From the IMG/VR virus record IMGVR_UViG_3300032560_000080, positions 1-31,817 of that record: 31,817 nucleotides of DNA. One strand, 5' to 3'. This document shows, in pieces, positions 10,188 to 31,817 of this stretch. Below the pieces are notes generated by a model that searched no databases, was not told the DNA's origin, and saw only the letters and a list, made by a program, of their open reading frames with translations. Made by a program: the position numbers and the translations under genes. This DNA comes from a virus. Every line of letters begins with the position of its first letter. Position 1 is the stretch's first letter.

Positions 10188-10706
10188 TTATACTCCTATT
10201 TGATTGTTAATTGGGGATACGGCCCCGTGGTCCGTTTTTGCAATTGAATCAGCCAGTTCATGTTTTTCAACATACTTGGCTAATTTCAATATCAAAATTT
10301 TATCTTCAAGTAACAGGCCCAAGGCAGTGTTACAATGATTACATAAAAGTGCGCGAATCTTACCATTTTTATGGTTGTGATCGACTGCTAGCGCTTTTTT
10401 AAATTCTGCCTGATGCTTATTACATACTGCGCATTTTCCTTCTTGTGCGGCAAACATAGCATTATAATCTTCCAAAGATAAACCATAGCCATATTTAAGC
10501 TTATAGTCTATTATCTTGTCTTTATTAAGGGTAACATAGTTCTTCATTTTTGCCAATCTGCCAATTCTATTCTTAGCGTAACCTTTGGCTTCAATTGCTC
10601 GGACTCTGTCTTTATTTTCATCAGTCCATTTCTTATCATAGGCGGCATGTTTCTTGGCAAAATCAGGATTAAGTTTGACCTTTTGATATTGTTCTCTAGT
10701 AGGCAT
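10188..10706 (-). CDS. HNH endonuclease, endonuclease VII type
   Basis: A 172-residue protein with a C-terminal nuclease domain. It has CAVC (Cys92, Cys95), the catalytic segment VDHNH (Asp109, His110, His112), NGKIRALLC and CNHCN (Cys122, Cys125, Asn126). This is the treble-clef zinc and HNH arrangement of the recombination endonuclease VII family. The N-terminal half is Lys-rich and helical and probably binds DNA. It interrupts the otherwise continuous tail module between tail terminator and tail tube, typical of a free-standing homing endonuclease, though a resolvase-like role in packaging is also possible. Its start overlaps the stop region of the upstream gene (TGAGTTATG). Confidence 0.9.
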   Translation of the reverse strand: MPTREQYQKVKLNPDFAKKHAAYDKKWTDENKDRVRAIEAKGYAKNRIGRLAKMKNYVTLNKDKIIDYKLKYGYGLSLEDYNAMFAAQEGKCAVCNKHQAEFKKALAVDHNHKNGKIRALLCNHCNTALGLLLEDKILILKLAKYVEKHELADSIAKTDHGAVSPINNQIGV

Positions 10707-17932: not shown

Positions 17933-19810
17933 TCAGGTTGGGTTGGTTTGTAAAGCAGCCGGCTCCTGGTTTAGCACGGCCTTGGCTTGTTTGATGGCTT
18001 CATCTTCGCCAATGGTCGCTTCCGGGATGAAACAACGGGCCATTAATGCCATGACTAACGCCATACACATACAGTCCCATAAATGGTTAGGAGTGGATTC
18101 GGTCTTAGGCTTATAGCGTCCGGTCTTAGGATCCAATCGTTCGCTATCCATATGGGCAGTAAAAGTCTCATCGGCTCTTTTATTGAATCGGAAATTAAAC
18201 GGTAATTTGCCGGCGATCATACTGGATAGGACAGTTTTGATTGACAGGTTACTCCAGACATAGTGGGTGGCTCGATGCTTGGCCCAGGGACTTCCAGCCG
18301 GCCATTGCGGATCTGGACGTGATTCTACCCCATAATAGCGTCTTTGACCGTCTGGATGAAGATAATCAACCCTAGGTGTAATATGCCCACCATCGCCTTT
18401 CAAACATATCCAAGTAGCCCAGATCTCCCTATTATCACGGCGTTTGAACTTCTCTCCGCGTAAGATAGATTCTTTGTATAATGCCACTGTATCCGTACCT
18501 GAATCAATACCGACGCTAATCGGACTTACATTGTATTTCTTACGGATATTGACTAGTTCATCAAATCCGACACAGACACCCCAATCAACTAGTCTAGCTT
18601 CGGATACTTTGTTACTCCAAGCGGTGACTAACCAATACATATGACCGGCTTGTACGTCGACAGTCAGGAATCGATGTGTCTCGTCCAGCCATTCTTCCGA
18701 TCCCAAACTGGTATCTTGCAATAGCTTGGGTGCGGTAATCTGTTCGCCAATCTTCCAGAACTGGGCTAGCTTTTGATTACGAAACAGCTTCATATCGTTA
18801 TCAATGCCAGTCTTATCATATACTTCCTTGGCTTTGAAGTATTGCATGGCGATCTTCTTGTAGGTTATGTCTTTATTAACATAAGTCGGCCAACTATAGC
18901 TATTGATAGTACGATCTCCGGTCTTGATCTGGATATAGGCACCATTTTGAACCATGGCTATGCGGTTATCTTCAGTATCAGTCACTTCATGAAAACAATG
19001 CTGGCAAACCATTCTGGTATTATCCGTACGTTCATCAGGAGTCAGGGTCTTTTCTTCATTTTGAGGAGTCCAGACCAATCCATAGTGCTTGCCATCCTTC
19101 GTACCTTGGAATTCATATGGTTGCAGTTTCTTACAACTAGGACAAGTCCAGCCATAGTGATATACATTTCCTTTCATGTATTCCTTATGAAGCTGACTGC
19201 CTTCGGTGTCTGGCTGGCTAGTTAAGATCAGTTTGCTGCTATTCTCAAAGGCGCTTAGACGGGAACGGACCTTGTCGACTACATTGGCATCATCATATAG
19301 CCATACTTCGTCTAGGATAGCAGTCTTAATGCTTAAACTATGCAGATTATTCTCTGACGTACCGCATGCTTTGATAAACTGGTTTCCTAGGTTTAATACC
19401 CCGGTTTTGCCATTGTACTTGGCTAAGTTAAGCAAATTGTTAGTATTGGCATTGGTTCTTAGCAATGGCAGGATACGAGTATTCATACAGGTGCTGGCCA
19501 TTACATCAGTTGGAAATACTCTTAATACCGGGGATGGATCTTGCAGTACTATATATGGAGCTAATACTTCCTGGATCAGACTCTTACCGGTTTGAGTACT
19601 GCTGGCGATGTTAACCTGTCGAATAGCCGGATCAGTCATATCTTCCATTGGTTTGTTAAGATATGGGCTGATTTGTGTATTGAACGGTCCGGTTATGGCA
19701 TATGCTCCTACCGGCAAAGTCAGGTTCTGTTCACACCATTGCCATAGATTGCCTTGGAATACCTTCTGGAAACCTTTGCTAAATGCCTGGACTAGCTTAT
19801 TTGGATTCAC
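17933..19810 (-). CDS. terminase large subunit, lambda gpA-like (625 aa)
   Basis: DNA packaging ATPase and nuclease. The N-terminal ATPase has a Walker A-like ASSTQTGKS (69-77) and Walker B with AILDEVW (Asp167, Glu168), followed by SKLILTSQPD as coupling motif. Two CxxC pairs (WTCPSCKK and VCQHC, about 230-285) form a zinc-finger-like insert, as in GpA proteins. The C-terminal nuclease domain has acidic positions in LTVDVQAGHMYW and VGIDSGTDTVALY. The start is GTG at 19810, supported by AAGGAT just upstream, and overlaps the end of the small terminase by 14 bases. Relatives of this type commonly cut at cos sites, which is relevant to the dyad array at 29494-29721. Confidence 0.94.
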   Translation of the reverse strand: MNPNKLVQAFSKGFQKVFQGNLWQWCEQNLTLPVGAYAITGPFNTQISPYLNKPMEDMTDPAIRQVNIASSTQTGKSLIQEVLAPYIVLQDPSPVLRVFPTDVMASTCMNTRILPLLRTNANTNNLLNLAKYNGKTGVLNLGNQFIKACGTSENNLHSLSIKTAILDEVWLYDDANVVDKVRSRLSAFENSSKLILTSQPDTEGSQLHKEYMKGNVYHYGWTCPSCKKLQPYEFQGTKDGKHYGLVWTPQNEEKTLTPDERTDNTRMVCQHCFHEVTDTEDNRIAMVQNGAYIQIKTGDRTINSYSWPTYVNKDITYKKIAMQYFKAKEVYDKTGIDNDMKLFRNQKLAQFWKIGEQITAPKLLQDTSLGSEEWLDETHRFLTVDVQAGHMYWLVTAWSNKVSEARLVDWGVCVGFDELVNIRKKYNVSPISVGIDSGTDTVALYKESILRGEKFKRRDNREIWATWICLKGDGGHITPRVDYLHPDGQRRYYGVESRPDPQWPAGSPWAKHRATHYVWSNLSIKTVLSSMIAGKLPFNFRFNKRADETFTAHMDSERLDPKTGRYKPKTESTPNHLWDCMCMALVMALMARCFIPEATIGEDEAIKQAKAVLNQEPAALQTNPT

Positions 19811-20420
19811 GGATATCCTTATGTTTGTGCTCCTTAAACCACTTATCTATATCATTCTGCAGCTTATCTACAATCTCATTATAGAGAGTTTTACACATTA
19901 CTATACGTTGGGTGCCATCTACTCTATTGATACGATCGGGCAGCTCATTGACTAGTTTGCTCATCAATAGGTTACCGACTGATGATCCTAACTTGCCAAG
20001 AAACTGTTCAAGTTCTTCCAAACTAACCATTTGTCCTTGCAGTTCGGCTATCTCCAGCTTCTGTAAAGTAATGTCATTCTGAAGCTTAATTCTCTTAAGC
20101 TCGTCAAAGTTATCACCTTTGGAAGCTAGTTCGATGACTTTATCCTTATTGGCGTCATAGAACTCCTTTACCTTATCGGCTATGACTGTATTAACCTTGA
20201 AACCATCTGGAAACAGTATCTTGACTGCTTTCAGATGATCCACCGGTATATTTAGATGTTGGCTAGCCTGTTTCAATGACAGGTACTTCTTACGCTTGTC
20301 AGTGATTGGTCGCCCACCCTTGTTCTTAGGTTTAGGCGCAGCTTCGGCTAAGTTAGGATTGGATTCCGTTCCTATATGCTGTATAGGGGATATAGTATCA
20401 TTATTCATTGGTTTTTCCAT
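19797..20420 (-). CDS. terminase small subunit, Nu1-like candidate (207 aa)
   Basis: The DNA-recognition subunit, by position directly before and overlapping gpA. A Lys/Pro-rich N-terminal tail (KPKNKGGRPITDKRKK at about 31-46) precedes a predicted winged helix-turn-helix with SLKQASQHLNIPVDHLKAVK (about 48-67), the Nu1-style DNA-binding arrangement. A long coiled-coil or helical region with LKRIKLQNDITLQKLEIAEL (about 108-127) follows, as in the Nu1 dimerisation region. The ATG at 20420 has no Shine-Dalgarno sequence; a second ATG four codons downstream is equally possible. The 151 bases before it form the largest gap in this half of the genome and may hold the late promoter. Confidence 0.8.
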   Translation of the reverse strand: MEKPMNNDTISPIQHIGTESNPNLAEAAPKPKNKGGRPITDKRKKYLSLKQASQHLNIPVDHLKAVKILFPDGFKVNTVIADKVKEFYDANKDKVIELASKGDNFDELKRIKLQNDITLQKLEIAELQGQMVSLEELEQFLGKLGSSVGNLLMSKLVNELPDRINRVDGTQRIVMCKTLYNEIVDKLQNDIDKWFKEHKHKDIRESK

Positions 20421-21065: not shown

Positions 21066-21752
21066 TTAAGTTTGTACCGTATCTATAGTTTTCATAGCTT
21101 CGGCTTCCCAATCAGTCAAAGGGGTTAGCCATTGGGTTTCTCCATGGGTTGCATAGCCTGGTACCGGAGTAACCAATATATAGCCAGACTGTCTTAGCTT
21201 CATAAACATCATGAAGTCATTCGGATGTTGGTTGTTCACTATCTCTGATCTTATCACACTTTCAGCTGATTTCAAAGTACTGACTTTGGCTGCGAAGGTC
21301 ATGGTGGTGGAAGAAGCTATGCGCCAATGGGTTGATTTACCCATATATAGCTGCGTAGTCTCAATGTTATTCATATACTTGTCCGGATGATCATATAATG
21401 ATACAAAGCCGGCTCCCATTCCCAACGCTTCTTCGATCAAACCAGGTGAGTTGGCTTTATGCAAGTAATCATCCTCCACAAAGTAGACGATCTCGTTATC
21501 CGATAGTTGCAAAGCCAGGTCTAATACATGGAGAAAGCTGCCGGCATTCCCTAGGCTAGTCTGGGCAAATTTGATCGTTGGAATGTTAAGGATATGTTTA
21601 AGTAACTCAGGATCAGTAAGATTATCACCGACTACTGTAATATCATGACCTTGAAAGCGAGCCAGGAAGTTAGTCAGGCAATTGATCTTAGTGATATAGG
21701 ATGGCTTGATCTTGGAGTATCCTTGATTGCTAATGCGATAGTATATCTTCAT
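21066..21752 (-). CDS. GT-A-like glycosyltransferase (228 aa)
   Basis: The sequence has a nucleotide-diphospho-sugar transferase pattern. An N-terminal alpha/beta part includes HDITVVGDNLTDPELL (about 36-51). A central FVEDDYLHKA (91-100) acts as the metal-binding DxD-type motif. Then come GAGFVSLYDHPD and a histidine-containing C-terminal segment YATHGETQWLTPL (about 205-217). The length fits a minimal catalytic domain without a membrane anchor. It is the last of five transferase genes, with a three-base gap from the preceding one. The acceptor is unknown; virion protein, host envelope sugar and modified DNA base are all possible. Confidence 0.75.
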   Translation of the reverse strand: MKIYYRISNQGYSKIKPSYITKINCLTNFLARFQGHDITVVGDNLTDPELLKHILNIPTIKFAQTSLGNAGSFLHVLDLALQLSDNEIVYFVEDDYLHKANSPGLIEEALGMGAGFVSLYDHPDKYMNNIETTQLYMGKSTHWRIASSTTMTFAAKVSTLKSAESVIRSEIVNNQHPNDFMMFMKLRQSGYILVTPVPGYATHGETQWLTPLTDWEAEAMKTIDTVQT

Positions 21753-21755
21753 AGG

Positions 21756-22403
21756 TCAATGTTGTCCTCGGTTCTGTTCTGGCGTGTAATCCTTAAGATA
21801 GCGGGCATTATCCTGGTGTTGCTTGGTCATGGATTTGACATGGATAATATCGTTATCCTGGTACATCGGCAAATGAATGACATTATGCAGCTTAGGATCG
21901 GTCTTGATCTGTTCATGTAACACTCCGGAATATCTGATGTCACGGCGTACTCTCCCTATCCTGCCTTGGTAATCAGGATAATTGATCAGCCCATCTTTGA
22001 CTGTCCAACCATACATCAAGGCATCAATAGGCTTGAATCCGCTAAATATGTTCTTTCTTGGCAACCAGATTACATCTGGCTTATGGGTGTTAGTGATGAT
22101 TTCCTTGATTCCTTTGAGCAGTTTCAGCGTCGGTTGTTCATCAGCGTCATGAAACCAGAAGTAGTCGGTTTTCACACGCTCCAATATATAGTTACGGTGT
22201 TCGCCATAGTCTTTGTTTAATATATGATTGACTACGTTGACTCCCTGGGCTTTCAACTGCTTTTCATATTCAGGTGTAGTCGGGTCATTAAGGATCCAGA
22301 TCTTATCCTGGCTATGTTTGTATGATTTGAGCAGATCAATCAGTTCGAACACCTGAGGTTCGCCATGAGTACAGATGATATGAGTAATCGTCGGGTTGTT
22401 CAT
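21756..22403 (-). CDS. glycosyltransferase family 2-like protein (215 aa)
   Basis: It starts MNNPTITHIICTHGEPQ, a typical first strand and loop of GT2 enzymes. KIWILNDPTTPEY (about 34-46) and KTDYFWFHDADEQPTL (about 78-93) follow; the last carries the DxD metal site. A later WLPRKNIFSG segment resembles the acceptor region of this family. There is no transmembrane helix, so it is probably cytoplasmic. The ATG overlaps the stop of the DUF5672-like gene by ATGA, indicating coupled translation within the glycosylation operon. Confidence 0.82.
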   Translation of the reverse strand: MNNPTITHIICTHGEPQVFELIDLLKSYKHSQDKIWILNDPTTPEYEKQLKAQGVNVVNHILNKDYGEHRNYILERVKTDYFWFHDADEQPTLKLLKGIKEIITNTHKPDVIWLPRKNIFSGFKPIDALMYGWTVKDGLINYPDYQGRIGRVRRDIRYSGVLHEQIKTDPKLHNVIHLPMYQDNDIIHVKSMTKQHQDNARYLKDYTPEQNRGQH

Positions 22404-23095
22404 GCGGTGAATGGTTTTAACGTTCCTGACTGCAATTGGTTGATGATTTCTCGCTGGCGGTCATTAAACTTACCATGCCAGCCAAACGTATCCTTAAAGT
22501 CTCGTCCTGGGTATTCCGGGATGTCGCCTTCATAAGAGAACTGGGCAGCTATCTTAAGATCCGGGAATTTGATGCCATTTAACTCCAATTGTGGTTTAAC
22601 GATCAACGATAACCAGACATCCTCCGGTTCTTGCACCATATATCCGGTCTGTGCTCCCAATCTTAGCAATTTCTGACTCCTTAGGCTAAATCCTCCATTA
22701 CCTATCCTGGCAAACCCATGATAAGGACGATAGCACCAATGAGGAGGATAAGGTGTCCAAGGTGCGCCAATGTAATCGTAGTTTAGGAATGCATCAGTCC
22801 ATTTGTCAGGATTAGTGATGAATCCATCCGTTTGAACAATCAATACGTGTGAAGTATTGATATGTTTGTATATCTCGTTTATTACATAGTGTTGGTAATA
22901 AGCCAATCCGCTATTTTCCACTTTAACGAAGCGATAGTCAGCCGGAATAGTCAGGCTAGTGTTGTTGGAAACGAATAGAGTTTCCTTAAAGTCAACCAGG
23001 CTATTGCAATATTCCAATACTTTGACACCAAACTGCGCGTCTGATGCACAGTTGACCATGCATAAGGTTACTGATGGCAGGTTAGGTTTGGTCAT
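22400..23095 (-). CDS. DUF5672-type putative glycosyltransferase (231 aa)
   Basis: The pattern LIVQTDGFI (85-93), NYDYIGAPW (105-113) and GNGGFSLRSQKLL (132-144), plus PEDVWLS nearby, is characteristic of the DUF5672 family. This family is commonly found in glycan loci and is thought to be GT-A-like, with QTDG replacing the DxD. The N-terminal LCMVNCASDAQFG fits the first strand. Both ends overlap neighbours by ATGA, so it is an integral part of the transferase operon. Confidence 0.85.
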   Translation of the reverse strand: MTKPNLPSVTLCMVNCASDAQFGVKVLEYCNSLVDFKETLFVSNNTSLTIPADYRFVKVENSGLAYYQHYVINEIYKHINTSHVLIVQTDGFITNPDKWTDAFLNYDYIGAPWTPYPPHWCYRPYHGFARIGNGGFSLRSQKLLRLGAQTGYMVQEPEDVWLSLIVKPQLELNGIKFPDLKIAAQFSYEGDIPEYPGRDFKDTFGWHGKFNDRQREIINQLQSGTLKPFTA

Positions 23096-24279
23096 AGCAA
23101 GGCTTTGTCCAGAATTCCATGCAAACGCTTCTTAAACATATCCAGGCTATACTTATGACGGTTGATTTCAGCCAGTTCCAGGGCCTTTTGATTAGCTTCG
23201 GTACGATCGCTATTGTAGAAATCCAGCATGATTTTGGATGCCTGCGCGTAATCGACAAAGAACCACTGTGAATTAGGTGGCACATATTCGGTTATATGTC
23301 TGGATTCCACTGGCTTTACTTCACCAGGCAACAGGATGGTATGGTCTTTATCTAGGAAATCCAGATGACCGCTCCAATTGCTGACTAGGATAGGTTTGCC
23401 GGTACAGCTGGCTTCGAGTAGAGGCAGGCCAAACCCCTCACCATGAGTGAAACTTGCATTCCCGATGATCTTAGGATGAGTATATAAGGCTGCCATCTGT
23501 GATTCGGTCAGCTCACCATGGAATACATAGACCGGAGTATCATTGTCAGGAACCGTGGCTTTGATCGCCTCGACTATCTCTATGCAAGCATTGCGGTCAT
23601 GCTTGCTATAGTTAATGCCATGAATCTTAAGGATAAGTGCCGGTTGTTTGGCTTTACCTTTGAATGTATTGCAGAACGTAGTGACCAATCCTTCCAAGTC
23701 TTTACGATCAGGACCTCCACCGCCAGCCTGACCGACGAACAGAAATGCCTCGGTTTCTTTGATCTTAGCCATCGTTTCATTGATTGAGGCATCTTCGGGC
23801 GCATCTGGACGGTATATGTCAGTATCCGTACTCCAAGGTAACACTTGGATTTCCTTGGTCATCTTAAACTTGGAATTGAGATAACCTTGTTTGGTATGAT
23901 TAGAGCATACCAGGCAAGTATCAAAGCGGTCAAAGGCTTCGGCAATCTGAGTCGGTACTTCTACCACTTCAACTCCGGCATTGATTGAAATATTATGGAT
24001 TGACCCGGATGGCTTGGACATATGAGGCAATGTATGACTGATGAACAAGTGTGGCGGAGGAATCTGGTTCGTCTTGGGAAAGTTATCACGGATGGCTTGA
24101 TCCCATTTTCCACGATGATACTTAGGTGCATTGCCACCCCATATTAATGGAGCAGTTAGCAGGTTAATCTTAGGATAAGTGCTAAGACCGTACCAGATCA
24201 GATCGGAAGCTACGCCATATCCCGACGAATTCAGGACGGGAGCTGAATATAGAGTGTTGAATTTCAGATTATTATTCAT
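23092..24279 (-). CDS. glycosyltransferase family 4 (395 aa)
   Basis: A GT-B fold retaining transferase. The N-terminal domain begins FNTLYSAPVLNSSGYGVA (about 7-24). The C-terminal nucleotide-sugar-binding domain has LFVGQAGGGGPDRKDLEGL (about 180-198), VYVFHGELTESQMAALY (about 250-266) and the GT4 signature GEGFGLPLLEAS (280-291), whose two glutamates are seven residues apart (Glu281, Glu289), then GKPILVSNWSG. It overlaps the next gene by ATGA and is four bases from the previous one. Substrate is unknown. Confidence 0.92.
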   Translation of the reverse strand: MNNNLKFNTLYSAPVLNSSGYGVASDLIWYGLSTYPKINLLTAPLIWGGNAPKYHRGKWDQAIRDNFPKTNQIPPPHLFISHTLPHMSKPSGSIHNISINAGVEVVEVPTQIAEAFDRFDTCLVCSNHTKQGYLNSKFKMTKEIQVLPWSTDTDIYRPDAPEDASINETMAKIKETEAFLFVGQAGGGGPDRKDLEGLVTTFCNTFKGKAKQPALILKIHGINYSKHDRNACIEIVEAIKATVPDNDTPVYVFHGELTESQMAALYTHPKIIGNASFTHGEGFGLPLLEASCTGKPILVSNWSGHLDFLDKDHTILLPGEVKPVESRHITEYVPPNSQWFFVDYAQASKIMLDFYNSDRTEANQKALELAEINRHKYSLDMFKKRLHGILDKALL

Positions 24280-24282
24280 AAC

Positions 24283-25635
24283 TTAAGCAGGGTATACATC
24301 AAACATCGGCGTTGGTTTAAAGCCGGCAATCACATCTTTGACTAGGCTGGTTAGACGGCTGCTAAAGCCATCCGCTGTCAGTCCTTGGTCTAGGCACCAT
24401 TGGCGTCCTTTCAAGCCTCGGCGTTTGCGTTCTTCCGGAGACACATTGTACCAGTATTTGAAAGCGTTGGCTGTGTCATCAATACTGGCGGCGTATTCAT
24501 ATAGATAGGGTGTTTGTGGACAACCTATGATAGTACGCTGTCCAAACAAAGGATATACCCATTCACCATGACGCTTATGCTTTGATTCGTTGAAGTTAGC
24601 TTCTGTCCATTCGTCATCATAGCCTAGCTGATCTCTTAAACCACCGACGCAATTGGCAATCAGCGGAATGCCGGCTAGACTAGCTTCATGAGTAGTCAGC
24701 CCGAATCCTTCCGAGTTAGCTACGTTAACCACTACATCAGCACAGTTATACATACGATTAATCGTATCTTCATTGCACTTCTGATGACTGATGCGAATAT
24801 TACAATTAGGTGCCAGAGCACGGATGACATGATCCAGATCAGTTCCGGCTACTGTAGCTGGTTCGGTATGTAACAATAGCAAAGTCTTGTCTGATTCAAC
24901 CTTAGGCAATGATTCATTGAACAATCGCCAGGCCATGATGGTATCAGGCAGTTTCTTGCGCCATTGATTACGATTATTAACCAAGGCTACGAAATTATAG
25001 TCCTTATTGCCGAACAATTGATCCTTAACCGGCTTAACATCACTATCCGGGATAGGTTTGAACACTTCCGGATCACGACCATGACCACAATACTGCACTA
25101 TTGGCTGCTTACCATACTTTGATTTGGTCAAGGCGTTAGTTACAAACCATTGGGTTTGCTTGGAGATAGTTCCAATTCCATCACAAGATTCATAGATCGG
25201 CAGATTCCAATGATAGCGACCGTCTGGATGTGGCGATAGTTCAGTATCCCAGACATGAAAAAACACAATCGGGCACTTCTGACGGATCATTTGGGCTGAT
25301 TGAAAGACCGCATCAAAGAAGTGAGGATCCTGGAACAAGAGCAAGCATTTAGGCTGTTCCATTGCCATCGCCTTCATGAAAGAGTCCATATCATTGAAAT
25401 CATGCGCCGGAATGATCTTAACCGGGCCATAAGGCGTGGTAACTGTCTCTATCTTAGGCAATGGACGTTCGCGAGGGGAATTGACGGTAGCCAATACCAC
25501 TACTTCATAATTGTTCTTTAGTAAATCAACACAGATATGCTGGCATTCACCTGATACTCCGCTAGTACTAAAGGGAGGATCACTAAAGATAAGTATCTTT
25601 TGCTTGGCAGTATTCAATGATACTAGGTTTTCCAT
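24283..25635 (-). CDS. glycosyltransferase family 4 (450 aa)
   Basis: The first transferase gene of the cluster. The N-terminal domain has ILIFSDPPFSTSGVSGECQ (14-32), a glycine-rich donor or acceptor loop, and FFHVWDTELSPHPDGRYHW (about 125-143). The C-terminal domain has NFVALVNNRNQWRKKLPDTI (about 214-233) and the GT4 signature NSEGFGLTTHEASLAGIP (307-324), with Glu309 and Glu317 in the E-x7-E arrangement. It differs enough from the neighbouring GT4 to indicate a distinct specificity. Four bases separate its stop from the ATG of the GroES-like gene's upstream operon partner on one side and the next transferase on the other. Confidence 0.92.
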   Translation of the reverse strand: MENLVSLNTAKQKILIFSDPPFSTSGVSGECQHICVDLLKNNYEVVVLATVNSPRERPLPKIETVTTPYGPVKIIPAHDFNDMDSFMKAMAMEQPKCLLLFQDPHFFDAVFQSAQMIRQKCPIVFFHVWDTELSPHPDGRYHWNLPIYESCDGIGTISKQTQWFVTNALTKSKYGKQPIVQYCGHGRDPEVFKPIPDSDVKPVKDQLFGNKDYNFVALVNNRNQWRKKLPDTIMAWRLFNESLPKVESDKTLLLLHTEPATVAGTDLDHVIRALAPNCNIRISHQKCNEDTINRMYNCADVVVNVANSEGFGLTTHEASLAGIPLIANCVGGLRDQLGYDDEWTEANFNESKHKRHGEWVYPLFGQRTIIGCPQTPYLYEYAASIDDTANAFKYWYNVSPEERKRRGLKGRQWCLDQGLTADGFSSRLTSLVKDVIAGFKPTPMFDVYPA

Positions 25636-26764: not shown

Positions 26765-27121
26765 TCAGTCCTTGGTTAAGTATTGGTGGCAGCTTAAGGC
26801 CATGTTTGGATCATCATTAAGCATAGCCAGAATGGTATTGCAACGTCGGCAGGTCAATCCTCTGATCTTGCCGTCGGAATGCCTATGCTCGACACACAGA
26901 TCATAAGGAAAGGCCGATTGGTGCTGCTTGCAGATATGACAGCAGCCAGCTTGCTTTGTAAACATCCTTTGATAGTCGGACAAGCCGATGCCATACTTTC
27001 GCCTTAGGGTAGCCTCCTTGATCCTAAGTTTATAGGCAGGAGTCTTTCTAAGTTGATTAAGCTTATCACGATTATTACGGTAGTATTCCGTATTGTAGTT
27101 GGGGTTTGACGGCTTGCTCAT
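26765..27121 (-). CDS. HNH endonuclease, endonuclease VII type (118 aa)
   Basis: A small relative of the gene at 10188-10706. The zinc and catalytic parts are CHIC (Cys61, Cys64), VEHRH (His79, His81), DGKIRGLTC and CRRCN (Cys91, Cys94, Asn95). Where the other copy has Asp before the first catalytic His, this one has Glu (EHRH versus DHNH), so activity may differ. The Lys/Arg-rich N-terminal region (RRKYGIGLSDYQRMF) is shared with the first copy (KYGYGLSLEDYNAMF), showing common origin. It lies with the GIY-YIG gene next to the helicase. The leader is AATCAT directly before ATG. Confidence 0.9.
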   Translation of the reverse strand: MSKPSNPNYNTEYYRNNRDKLNQLRKTPAYKLRIKEATLRRKYGIGLSDYQRMFTKQAGCCHICKQHQSAFPYDLCVEHRHSDGKIRGLTCRRCNTILAMLNDDPNMALSCHQYLTKD

Positions 27122-27146: not shown

Positions 27147-27650
27147 TTAGTGTTTGATTGTATGATAGCGCATCATCATATCTTGAAATGCATAAGATAC
27201 GACAGTTGTATTGTCAAACGTGTCAAATGTCATACGTGCGCAAAGATACGGATCAATGTGCTTTCTTACGAACTCCTTTACTTTATCAGGCAATGAATTC
27301 ACCTTTTCAATGGCTTTGCATTTGAATGACTTGTTGTAGTATCCATCGAATGTCTTTATGGTATCCAGGTATAGCTGTTCGTCAGCATACAATTGCTGCC
27401 TAGGATAGTTCCAGGAGACAATCTTTACAAAATGGATAGCGAATGATTGTTCGCCATACTTCTTAAAATCATCCTGCATAGCCAGGTTGGTGTGCTTTCC
27501 CTGTTGCAAATCTCTCAAATGGCTCCTTAACCTGGGTTTGAATTCCCCGGCTGAACCAACATACTTAAGGTTGGTAGCGGTGCACGTGATTATATAGATA
27601 CCACCGCGATGATATAATGAAGAGCTAATCAGAAATTCGGAAAGTAACAT
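27147..27650 (-). CDS. GIY-YIG endonuclease (167 aa)
   Basis: The N-terminal catalytic domain has GIY (17-19) and YVG (30-32), the variant of the second motif seen in many phage enzymes. Arginines follow in KPRLRSHL (39-45), then an acidic segment ADEQLYLD (89-96) with the metal-binding Glu91, and YYNKS (about 104-108). The remaining 60 residues probably bind DNA. It is free-standing with only 4 bases between it and the helicase gene. A homing endonuclease or a repair or resolution nuclease are the alternatives. The leader is AATCAT directly before ATG, as in the next gene. Confidence 0.9.
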   Translation of the reverse strand: MLLSEFLISSSLYHRGGIYIITCTATNLKYVGSAGEFKPRLRSHLRDLQQGKHTNLAMQDDFKKYGEQSFAIHFVKIVSWNYPRQQLYADEQLYLDTIKTFDGYYNKSFKCKAIEKVNSLPDKVKEFVRKHIDPYLCARMTFDTFDNTTVVSYAFQDMMMRYHTIKH

Positions 27651-27654
27651 ATGA

Positions 27655-29058
27655 TTATTTGGTTTGGTTGTCAGCCAAGCAGTACAATCCAGGGGAAGGC
27701 TGGGATATTCCTGGGATTGATTTCAATCTGGCATAGAAGGCGCTTCTACCTATGCCGAGGTTGCCTAAGGCTCTTTTATATATTATCGAAGCAGATTCAG
27801 GTGTGCTGGTGAATTGGGAGAGCATTTCCTGGTTTGAATATTGGCAATTAGGATTTAGCTCTTCCTTGGAGTATGAATTGTCCACGAGCAGGCTGGGTCC
27901 GTCACAAATAATACCTATTGGATGTACTTGCTTATAATAACTGCAGACAATATCGACCACAAATCGATGTTGCTCTTCGTCAACAATACGGATTCCCAGC
28001 ATAGTTCTAAGAATGCGACCCCAACCACCGCCGGATGACAATTCTACGGCGCGCTTGCCGGTTTGATCACCTTTGGTTGTGTGGGTGACTATAAGGATTG
28101 CCAGCTTGCCGGTTTTGGCAAGTTCCTCAAAAGGTTCGGCGAGTTTAAGCATAGTATCGTTACTATTCTCTTCCAACCCGTCGACCATCCCATATAGGCG
28201 GTACACGCTGTCAAAACATACGAACTTATATTGGTTATCGATTATCTCCTTGCGCAGAGCTTCGAACATATTGGTGGCGCCCATTTTTGCACCTAATGTA
28301 TGAATGACTGAAAAGTGCACATAGTCAATGTGAACGATTCCAAGTTCCTTAGCCACCAATTGGATACGCTCTTCAAATTCACCGTCAAGTAGCTCAGTAT
28401 TAACTAATAGAGTTTTGGTCTTCTCACATTTATGTCCCAACCAATCAAGGCCGTGAGACACACAGAGAGCCAGACGTATCAAATGCCAGCTCTTGTACGC
28501 TTTGGCTGGCGCGGCGAGACATGACAAAGTACTGCGCTTGATCAGCCCATGAATAATAGCAGGTTCAACATCGATTTTTCGGATGAGCAGATCCTTAATG
28601 CAGCTCTTTCTAAAACCGATATTTTCTCCAGTCGATTCAAGTTCTTTTTGAATCTGCAAATAGCTGGATAACTCATCGGCGACAGATAGCAAACCATCAG
28701 TTTTATGTTTGACACCGTTAATGCGCTGTCGGAGCATCCAATCCTTTAGCATAGAAGTTTCGTCTTTGACAGGAATTGGATCTTCTCCATGAAGTTTAGC
28801 AAGCGCAGTTATAAAGTAGTCCTCAGTTGGAGCGGTTTTACCCTCGTTTGCCTCCAAATAGGACAAAAGTTGTTCTTCGTTAAATTCCAATGGACGAGCT
28901 ATTATATAATTGGCGATAGTTTGGTATAATTGGTCACCAAATGTATTGTTAATCATGAAGTCTGAAGACTTTACTCCAAGATTGGTGGCGATTGCACGGA
29001 AGGACTGACTGGTAAGCATCGCGTTTAAAATGCGTGCCGTGGTTATTGTATTGTTCAT
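27655..29058 (-). CDS. RepA-like replicative helicase (AAA_25 type, 467 aa)
   Basis: A RecA-fold hexameric helicase. The N-terminal 160 residues are helical, with a DnaB-like LNAMLTSQSFRAIA. The ATPase has the RepA-type Walker A APAKAYKSWHLI (183-194), Walker B FVCFDSVYRL (279-288) and ILIVTHTTKGD (321-331), the conserved His-Thr-Thr-Lys sensor of this family. SSGGGWGR (341-348) follows. The C-terminal 80 residues contain a winged-helix-like part (KRALGNLGIGRSAFYARLK). It is the first gene after the putative origin and is the only DNA-replication enzyme recognised, so polymerase and probably primase are host-supplied. No separate primase domain is visible. The leader has no Shine-Dalgarno sequence. 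Confidence 0.88.
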   Translation of the reverse strand: MNNTITTARILNAMLTSQSFRAIATNLGVKSSDFMINNTFGDQLYQTIANYIIARPLEFNEEQLLSYLEANEGKTAPTEDYFITALAKLHGEDPIPVKDETSMLKDWMLRQRINGVKHKTDGLLSVADELSSYLQIQKELESTGENIGFRKSCIKDLLIRKIDVEPAIIHGLIKRSTLSCLAAPAKAYKSWHLIRLALCVSHGLDWLGHKCEKTKTLLVNTELLDGEFEERIQLVAKELGIVHIDYVHFSVIHTLGAKMGATNMFEALRKEIIDNQYKFVCFDSVYRLYGMVDGLEENSNDTMLKLAEPFEELAKTGKLAILIVTHTTKGDQTGKRAVELSSGGGWGRILRTMLGIRIVDEEQHRFVVDIVCSYYKQVHPIGIICDGPSLLVDNSYSKEELNPNCQYSNQEMLSQFTSTPESASIIYKRALGNLGIGRSAFYARLKSIPGISQPSPGLYCLADNQTK

Positions 29059-29081
29059 AATCTGTAATCTTTATTGGTTAA

Positions 29082-29182
29082 TTGAGTGGTTTAAGTTTAT
29101 TTAAAACACCAGAATTAACTGGCGGAACAATAGACAAGACAGAAGAACGGAGGAGATTAGGCTCCGCACTTAAACCACTCAA
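29082..29182. repeat. 15-bp perfect inverted repeat upstream of the helicase
   Basis: TTGAGTGGTTTAAGT (29082-29096) is the exact reverse complement of ACTTAAACCACTCAA (29168-29182), with 71 bases between arms. The first arm ends 24 bases before the helicase ATG. It could be a pair of operator half-sites for autoregulation or an RNA stem closing a leader structure. Confidence 0.7.
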
Positions 29183-29357
29183 AATTACTTTCGCTTGTCA
29201 AAACTGTTCTCTACTAGCCAGGCAATCACTCCTGACTACAAGATCAGCTTAGGACATTTTATGCTGGATGACAATAAAAAAGTGGAAAATTATGATCAGA
29301 TGTAGTTAAGTCATTGATTATTAATGTAATTTAGTGCAAAGAAATGCCAAATTTTCG

Positions 29358-29388
29358 TTTGATTTAGTTTATTAAACTTTTAATCAAA
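29358..29388. other. AT-rich hairpin in candidate unwinding element
   Basis: TTTGATT (29358-29364) with AATCAAA (29382-29388) and AGTTT (29366-29370) with AAACT (29374-29378) form an AT-only stem with a three-base loop. It lies in the most AT-rich part of the intergenic region (about 29270-29393), suited to DNA opening. Confidence 0.5.
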
Positions 29389-29401
29389 TTCCGGTCTTAC
29401 A

Positions 29402-29466
29402 GGTCTGAGTCCGTACCGCAGCCTAGCCAGGTGCGGACGAAGGACCTTGGTACGAAGGACCAAGCT
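29402..29466. other. GC-rich structured element with GAAGGACC repeat
   Basis: GTCCG with CGGAC and CCGCA (29416-29420) with TGCGG (29432-29436) can pair, and CGAAGGACC occurs twice (near 29438 and 29454). It stands out from the AT-rich sequence beside it. It does not fold as a canonical tRNA. It may be part of the origin or a small structured RNA. Confidence 0.35.
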
Positions 29467-29513
29467 TAGTTCTTTCTCCTTATAAGGTGACCGGACCACC
29501 GGACAGCGTTATA

Positions 29514-29536
29514 AACTCTACATTATTAACGAGTTA
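29514..29536. repeat. 23-base hairpin repeat, copy 1
   Basis: Begins AACTCTACATTAT and ends GAGTTA; 21 of 23 bases match copy 2 at 29626-29648. The AACTC and GAGTT ends pair. Both differences fall in the loop, so the stem is conserved. It lies between box 29499 and inverted box 29555. Confidence 0.8.
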
Positions 29537-29625
29537 CGACAAAAGTTTTCATGGCTGTCCGGTGGTCAAACCGGACAGATTTACGTTCAAACCGGACAGA
29601 ATTCCGGTAAACCGGACAGTATCTT

Positions 29626-29648
29626 AACTCTACATTATCAATGAGTTA
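29626..29648. repeat. 23-base hairpin repeat, copy 2
   Basis: Second copy, in the 48-base loop between the 33-bp arms of the dyad array. Same orientation as copy 1, 112 bases apart. Confidence 0.8.
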
Positions 29649-29722
29649 CATCAATAACCCTGTAAAGCTGTCCGGTTTACCGGAATTCTGTCCGGTTTGA
29701 CCACCGGACAGCATCGGACAGC

Positions 29723-29753
29723 AAAAAGACCTCCCCGCACAACCAGGGAGGTC
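29723..29753 (-). terminator. intrinsic terminator ending the late transcript
   Basis: On the minus strand GACCTCCC (29753-29746) pairs with GGGAGGTC (29735-29728) across a 10-base loop, followed by five T (29727-29723). It lies 87 bases downstream of the lipoprotein stop and just before the box array, so it would stop tail and lysis-region transcription from entering the origin. Confidence 0.9.
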
Positions 29754-29839
29754 CAAACAACAACTTATTTACGACACATCAGACTTACACCATCAGATTA
29801 GCATAACTACCAGAATACGTCAAGATCGCCTCGGGAAGC

Positions 29840-30202
29840 TTACTTAGCAGCTGCACTGGCTCCTTGGATGGCTGCGGCTCCAGCAACCTGCAAAGCGTTC
29901 ACAATGGCATTTCCAGTTGCGGTCACTACATTAGCCTCGGCGGTCCCAGTATTGACGATATTGGTAGGATTCTCAGTTGTGCTAAGATGATCAATATGAA
30001 TGTTAGCCGTACCGTTGGTTGCCACACTAATGTCCAACCCGTCCAAAATAGTGTCCTTGGGATTGCTTAGACTGAAAGGCTGGCCATTAATGGTACCTTG
30101 GAGATTCAAATGCGGCGTATTGGCGTTGAGCGTATCAAGCGACTGGCAACCTGCGAATACCAAGGTAAACGCAGCCAGAATTGGGAGTAGAATATATTTC
30201 AT
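29840..30202 (-). CDS. small lipoprotein (120 aa)
   Basis: A signal peptide MKYILLPILAAFTLVFAGC (1-19) has a lipobox-like VFAGC, with Cys19 as the expected lipidated residue. The mature part is Thr/Asn/Ala-rich and beta-like (LNLQGTINGQPFSLSNPKDT), ending in an Ala-rich tail (VAGAAAIQGASAAAK). It would be attached to a membrane facing the periplasm. It is the last gene before the terminator, in the region where lysis genes are expected, so a spanin or superinfection-exclusion role is possible. It lacks the Pro-rich sequence of Rz1 proteins, so the first is doubtful. Confidence 0.75.
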   Translation of the reverse strand: MKYILLPILAAFTLVFAGCQSLDTLNANTPHLNLQGTINGQPFSLSNPKDTILDGLDISVATNGTANIHIDHLSTTENPTNIVNTGTAEANVVTATGNAIVNALQVAGAAAIQGASAAAK

Positions 30203-30300: not shown

Positions 30301-30819
30301 TTAACAATTCCAGGAGTCAGACTTCGTAATACAAGCGCTGACTTTTAGGATATCGTCAAAATAAACAAACAGTTCCTGATTAAACTTAGGACTAGTTGGA
30401 TCAAGGCACGGTTCAAACTTGATCAACTCCAGGTTAGTAAAGAATTCCCGGCTTTGAAACCAGTCAGCCCTCCACCTAAACCACTGTCTTTTGGCATTTT
30501 GCTGCGTGATATATCCTCTAAGTGAATAATCCAATTTACTCAGTTCTGCAATATCCCATTTGATTGGTTTGGCTTTGTTATCATAGTAATCGTGCATAAA
30601 CTCACATCTTTTGAGAAATGAGTAAAAATGTCTATTGTTCAGCTTACTATTGCAAGTCTGGCAGGCATGAGTAGTTGGACCATATATTGTTTTATCAGCA
30701 CGTTTTCTATTTATAGTCTGGCTGGATACGGCAATAATATGATCTATTGATTCGGCATTGTCTCCGCAATATGTGCAGAAATTAGACGAACCAAACTTAA
30801 AGTAGGGCAGGCTGGACAT
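30301..30819 (-). CDS. HNH endonuclease, third copy, different subtype (172 aa)
   Basis: The HNH domain is at the N-terminus: CTYC (Cys15, Cys18), DHIIAV (Asp26, His27) and CQTCN (Cys53, Cys56, Asn57). The spacing and the N-terminal placement differ from the endonuclease VII-like pair, so it is not a close paralogue. The following 110 residues are aromatic and basic (RQWFRWRADWFQSREFF) and probably bind DNA. It separates the holin-like gene from the lipoprotein and is likely a mobile homing endonuclease inserted in the lysis region. Confidence 0.85.
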   Translation of the reverse strand: MSSLPYFKFGSSNFCTYCGDNAESIDHIIAVSSQTINRKRADKTIYGPTTHACQTCNSKLNNRHFYSFLKRCEFMHDYYDNKAKPIKWDIAELSKLDYSLRGYITQQNAKRQWFRWRADWFQSREFFTNLELIKFEPCLDPTSPKFNQELFVYFDDILKVSACITKSDSWNC

Positions 30820-31553: not shown

Positions 31554-31817
31554 TTATGTATGACTGGTAAGAATACCATTGGTGAAAACTAGTGTGCCGT
31601 TTCCAGATGGATACTTTTGATAAGCTATTGTAACTGACACACCTGGAGTTCCACTACTACGAATGGTGCCAGTGAAATTGATGTCACCATTCACGTCCAA
31701 GGGGTAAACAGGGGAAATGTTATTGATACCGACGGCTTCAGCACTAGAATCCAACGTTAGCTGTACACCTTGAGTATCAAGTTGAATATCTCCGCTTACT
31801 GCCGTTAGATTAATGAA
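31554..31817 (-). CDS. tail fibre protein, C-terminal part (runs in from right edge)
   Basis: These 87 residues and TAA complete the gene whose start is at 1769. The first 146 bases of this piece (31672-31817) duplicate 1-146, where the fibre frame is identical. The new portion is the last 39 residues, TGTIRSSGTPGVSVTIAYQK onward to ILTSHT. The last repeat reads SPVYPLDVNGDINF here but LDVQG at the left end, because two bases differ. No chaperone or peptidase domain is seen at the C-terminus. Confidence 0.8.
   Translation of the reverse strand, partial: FINLTAVSGDIQLDTQGVQLTLDSSAEAVGINNISPVYPLDVNGDINFTGTIRSSGTPGVSVTIAYQKYPSGNGTLVFTNGILTSHT
31672..31817. repeat. terminal overlap, right copy
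   Basis: Right-hand copy of 1-146, in the same orientation. If the copies are one locus, the unique genome is 31,671 bases. Confidence 0.93.

Follow-up and report, generated by a model that had tools for sequence, protein, structure and literature searches.

A box array beside a RepA-like helicase gene as a probable replication origin in a 31.8-kb virus genome

Helicases and initiators that read iterons

The closest described systems are SaPI Rep/ori and the SCCmec Cch2 system, in which the genes of self-loading initiator helicases have short iterons beside them; the phage locus described here shares the placing of iterons beside a helicase gene. The C-terminal domain of SaPI Rep and of SCC Cch2 reads iterons located just downstream of its own gene, and Cch and Cch2 are predicted to be distant homologues of different SaPI Rep helicases, belonging to different helicase families (PMC7581432). 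For the phage, reading by the helicase's own C-terminal domain is a proposal. The phage differs from SaPI Rep and Cch2 in that its helicase core is RecA-fold and RepA-like, outside the SaPI Rep and Cch2 families, and in that its array stands upstream of the gene and consists of two convergent-box units. The kind of system is known; what varies is the class of helicase, the design with convergent boxes and the position upstream.

Other replicons share part of this organization. The oriV of the IncQ plasmid RSF1010 contains iterons and an AT-rich stretch, and its helicase, like that of the phage, has the RepA fold. The RSF1010 iterons are read by a separate protein, RepC, whereas no RepC-like gene was recognised in the phage. 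In phage P4, the C-terminal winged helix of the alpha helicase, a protein that also contains a primase, reads the short repeats of ori and crr, which occur in both orientations and include a duplicated repeat block. Rep_3 plasmids of the pDCAR4 and pKMA505 type resemble the phage in having 20-22-bp spaced repeats with TCAAACC(T)GGACAGATTTACG that precede the initiator gene. However, the plasmid units have an extra T, the phage has no Rep_3 gene, and its boxes occur in both orientations, forming large inverted repeats.

Composition and geometry of the array

The window, meaning the whole stretch of virus DNA analysed, is the complete IMG/VR record IMGVR_UViG_3300032560_000080 (1-31,817; 31,817 nucleotides). 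Its ends (1-146 / 31672-31817) share an overlap of 146 bp (98.6% identity) that falls within a tail-fibre gene. The map is therefore probably a circle of about 31.67 kb, and a circular or permuted genome is probable despite no end repeat having been called. All recognised genes lie on the minus strand, and no tRNA was found in the record. The sole large regulatory-looking gap (29059-29839) is bordered on one side by a small lipoprotein-like gene (29840-30202, minus strand) and holds the array at 29490..29722. Between the late genes and the array stands a strong intrinsic terminator of the late transcript (29727..29754, minus strand), and past the array comes the gene of the RepA-like helicase (29058-27655), in agreement with the sequence-only reading, which had placed the array between the end of the late transcript and this gene.

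The array comprises eight copies of ACCGGACAG and one of TCGGACAG in both orientations. Exact CCGGACAG boxes start at 29499, 29571, 29592, 29612 and 29704 on the plus strand and at 29555, 29668 and 29688 on the minus strand. The ninth box, at 29714 on the plus strand, is the near-match TCGGACAG. No exact CCGGACAG occurs outside the array in the 31.8-kb record, and the ACCGGACAG 9-mer has an expected count of 0.15 over both strands of the whole circle. In every other 250-bp stretch of the record, no 8-mer occurs more than three times, and three was also the ceiling in 2,000 shuffles of the array. The locus thus has several copies of one short sequence within about 200 bp that are unique in the replicon, as in iteron-type origins, and the observation of the array is confirmed.

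The array is a duplicated unit with a period of 113 bp, in which convergent boxes flank an AT-rich core and are separated by 56 bp, start to start, in both copies. Unit 1 (29494..29567) consists of box B1 (plus), the core and box B2 (minus); its inverted arms (29494-29507 / 29554-29567) are 14 bp long, one more than the 13 bp first reported for this perfect repeat. Unit 2 (29587..29700) has perfect 33-bp inverted arms, B4-B5 (29587-29619) and B6-B7 (29668-29700), around the second core, with the inner boxes B5 and B6 at the same 56-bp distance. This 33-bp repeat and the 24-mer at 29555-29578, an exact reverse complement of 29688-29711, are both present as originally described. The two cores, AACTCTACATTATTAACGAGTTACGACAA at 29514..29542 and its copy at 29626..29654 (both plus), had been taken for hairpin repeats. 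They are real direct repeats, 86% identical, with weak hairpins only (-1.6 and -2.2 kcal/mol; z -0.13 and -1.43); since the folding is no better than that of shuffled sequence, the label of hairpin should be dropped. Between the two cores, direct iterons beginning GGTCAAACCGGACAGATTTACGTTCAAACCGGACAG (29564..29619, plus) recur at 20-21-bp spacing and resemble the iterons of Rep_3 plasmids.

Elements flanking the array

About 100 bp from the array lies the record's highest-AT 120 bp (29271..29390), a candidate DNA-unwinding element with 78.3% AT against a record mean of 56.5 (sd 4.8). Two adjacent stem-loops (29409..29464; DNA fold z ~-3 on either strand) stand between this stretch and the array. 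The helicase leader (29100-29190, minus strand) also folds better than shuffles (z -3.2) and possibly forms a leader RNA structure. A promoter scan gave no excess over shuffles, and Rfam gave no match at gathering score; sub-threshold Rfam miRNA matches were rejected, as they arise from the inverted repeats of the array. The GC-skew profile, proposed earlier as a check for an origin, lent no support: its range is unremarkable (42 of 500 block shuffles) and uninformative.

Likeness to plasmid iterons

A plasmid nucleotide search with 29550-29630 as query matched 11 records, nine of which are pDCAR4 and a group of eight plasmids from Pasteurellaceae, and iterons preceding Rep_3 initiators are the best plasmid match of the window. 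Two records, pDCAR4 and pKMA505, were opened; in both, the matched DNA is a set of non-coding repeats that lie upstream of the gene for a replication initiator, which in pDCAR4 is Rep3 by Pfam. The alignment to pDCAR4 has 50/58 identities and is iteron-like in the manner of a Rep_3 replicon, with a significance that is inflated because both aligned sequences are themselves repeats; the match is one 22/23 unit repeated.

These iterons raise the alternative that the array is an iteron origin read by another initiator, either a phage protein that escaped recognition or one of the Rep_3 type supplied by the host or a plasmid. The likeness extends over 47-58 nt, beyond the box itself, which speaks for such a reader. 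On the other hand, the Rep_3 domain (PF01051, PF21205) is absent from all six frames of the record, the small ORFs that were scanned gave no initiator match, the repeat structure inflates the plasmid match, and dependence on a plasmid protein would make the phage fragile. We therefore regard another initiator as unlikely.

The helicase and its C-terminal tail

The RepA-like helicase (467 aa; 27655..29058, minus strand) has a RecA-fold core at residues 167-345, with AAA_25 (PF13481) as its sole Pfam family match, and the array lies 431 bp upstream of its gene. The top fold matches of its structural model are RecA-type ATPases, DnaB, Twinkle and RSF1010 RepA (1olo). At residues 409-461, AlphaFold2 places three helices and a beta hairpin (pLDDT ~65-81), a region predicted with moderate confidence to be a C-terminal winged helix. 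The winged helix of the window protein has no Pfam match, and helix-turn-helix (HTH) profiles match two helicase relatives at the corresponding place. The earlier reading had recognised no initiator gene and had left the binding protein as a question. A likely answer is the adjacent helicase itself, whose predicted winged helix is the proposed reader of the CCGGACAG boxes.

Box arrays beside distant helicase relatives

Distant relatives of the helicase, 25-30% identical, were retrieved with a six-sequence alignment (80 viral and 80 genome loci), and 133 loci remained after dereplication. An array was scored where one 8-mer occurred at least four times within the 300 bp that follow the helicase gene. 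By this test, 60 of the 133 loci carry an array; among control windows taken from these loci, 16 of 13,194 do so, and the best cluster adjoins the helicase stop in 61 of the 67 loci having such a cluster. Boxes occur in both orientations in 45 of the 60 arrays, and their sequences vary greatly among relatives. Open frames overlap 29 of the 60 arrays in a 60-aa test, by chance or at a gene end, which is a caveat for the weaker arrays. Strong stem-loops accompany the relatives' arrays (55% versus 8% of control stretches at the chosen score). The pairing of helicase gene and box array recurs across many unrelated phages.

GC-rich stem-loops follow the box arrays at L120 (7440-7470), L080 (7430-7460) and other helicase loci; the loop GATGCTTAC is common to those of L120 and L080, and these structures could be priming sites or terminators. 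One relative that was checked in full (L195) has a primase domain in addition to the helicase, and its 15-copy cluster was set aside, being 1.35 kb away from the helicase stop and resembling a coding repeat.

Two features of this comparison count against the reading of the array as an origin read by the helicase. About half of the relatives have no array by the four-copy test, and the window array stands upstream of the helicase gene, whereas the relatives' arrays stand directly downstream. The same difference in position bears on the possibility that the boxes are operators, on which a regulator would control the early (helicase) transcript with no origin function. The window array does lie ahead of the gene that opens the transcription unit, and dyad boxes suit dimeric regulators; however, arrays downstream of the helicase gene would be unable to control that gene's promoter, and no repressor or integrase was recognised in the phage. 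Iterons may also autoregulate, so such control could be an additional role. A purely regulatory array is accordingly considered very improbable.

Do the boxes follow the helicase tail?

Among the 60 arrays, similarity of the helicase tail (the last 75 aa) predicts box similarity beyond the similarity of the ATPase core, with a partial rank r of 0.22 that was reached in 0 of 1000 permutations; the reverse partial is 0.10. Mean box similarity climbs steadily with tail identity. In relatives with a changed tail and a changed box, the ATPase domain is 91-96% identical, and pairs with near-identical cores and unlike tails have unlike boxes (L097/L122, L122/L192 and L122/L123). L097 and L122, for example, share 95% of the core and 29% of the tail and have the boxes GGACAAAA and AACGAAAA, respectively, while L097 and L123 (core 93%, tail 78%) have an identical box. 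Shared boxes likewise accompany similar tails in L112/L146 and L080/L120. This correlation is no proof of binding: the tail is encoded right next to the array, so linkage could contribute and shared inheritance alone could account for the result. The box nearest to the window's CCGGACAG is CCGGACAA of L120. The window tail is only ~14% identical to the L120 tail, for which reason the likeness of the two boxes was not used as evidence, and it may be coincidence.

Nearest isolate and the packaging alternative

By portal and capsid, the nearest isolate is Verrucomicrobia phage P8625 (NC_029047), which carries a TATCGGCA array directly after its own, different, primase-helicase. This array spans the ends of the deposited record (32780-32894 and 1-59) and is easily missed, because the record begins and ends inside it. 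A genome 95% identical to P8625 (L244) has the same TATCGGCA array after the primase-helicase as a continuous stretch. An array therefore follows the helicase in this lineage too, with a box that differs along with the helicase.

The L244 array lies ~570 bp upstream of terS as well, and the evidence from P8625 and L244 by itself would therefore be compatible with a role in packaging. The sequence-only reading had offered a terminase recognition site as an alternative to an origin; in its cosB form, a Nu1-like small terminase would bind the boxes and the genome would be cut nearby. The window does encode a large terminase of the GpA type and a small terminase that resembles Nu1 (a weak match to a small-terminase family, with the Nu1 likeness judged by eye), and the array falls where the transcription map naturally breaks, between its end and its start. 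P8625 even has a record that starts inside the array, but its paper reports a single contig with a gap closed by PCR and describes no mapped ends, so the break proves nothing. Against packaging, terS (19797-20420) is 9 kb from the window array, the constant neighbour of the relatives' arrays is the helicase, terS of EFC-1 is ~2 kb from the helicase gene, and the box sequence tracks the helicase tail. The terminase claim is left without support, and a packaging site is judged quite unlikely.

No close relative of the array was found among phage records, and the viral contigs yielded only a near-identical 12.9-kb fragment that does not include the array region. Four loci with box-pair matches (L010, L029, L044 and L045) were rejected, the repeats lying within coding frames where checked, and L264 was rejected as a lone terminator-like palindrome.

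A proposed self-loading helicase at its own origin

The earlier suggestion of an iteron-type origin is well supported by the arrays beside RepA-like helicases, the plasmid iterons beside Rep_3 genes and the adjoining AT-richest stretch. We infer that the array is probably a replication origin whose boxes are read by the C-terminal winged helix of the helicase. Copies of the helicase would bind the CCGGACAG boxes through this small predicted domain, and the two convergent-box units would probably place two helicase assemblies face to face. The AT-rich stretch at 29271-29390 would then melt, and the helicase would load there with neither a separate initiator nor a loader.

A broader proposition, for which the case seems evenly balanced, is that phage helicases with the RepA (RecA-type) fold make up a wide class of initiators that load themselves, in which a swappable C-terminal winged helix reads a matching box array beside the gene and origin specificity passes from phage to phage as a small cassette; the window array would have been relocated upstream and arranged as two convergent units. 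If this is true, repeated 8-base boxes beside a RepA-like helicase gene would give a simple rule by which the origin could be located, and its reader named, in many phages that lack an assigned origin. A RecA-fold helicase would also join the initiators that recognise their own origins, a role best documented in other helicase classes. The natural tail swaps provide ready-made pairs for specificity tests.

Other genes of the record

A run of glycosyltransferase-like genes (21066-25635), identified by eye only, lies between the small ORFs and the terminase and is unusual cargo for a 32-kb phage. Homing-type endonucleases of the HNH/endonuclease VII-like and GIY-YIG kinds are encoded at 10188-10706, 26765-27121, 27147-27650 and 30301-30819, several in one small genome, and two of these genes directly follow the helicase gene.
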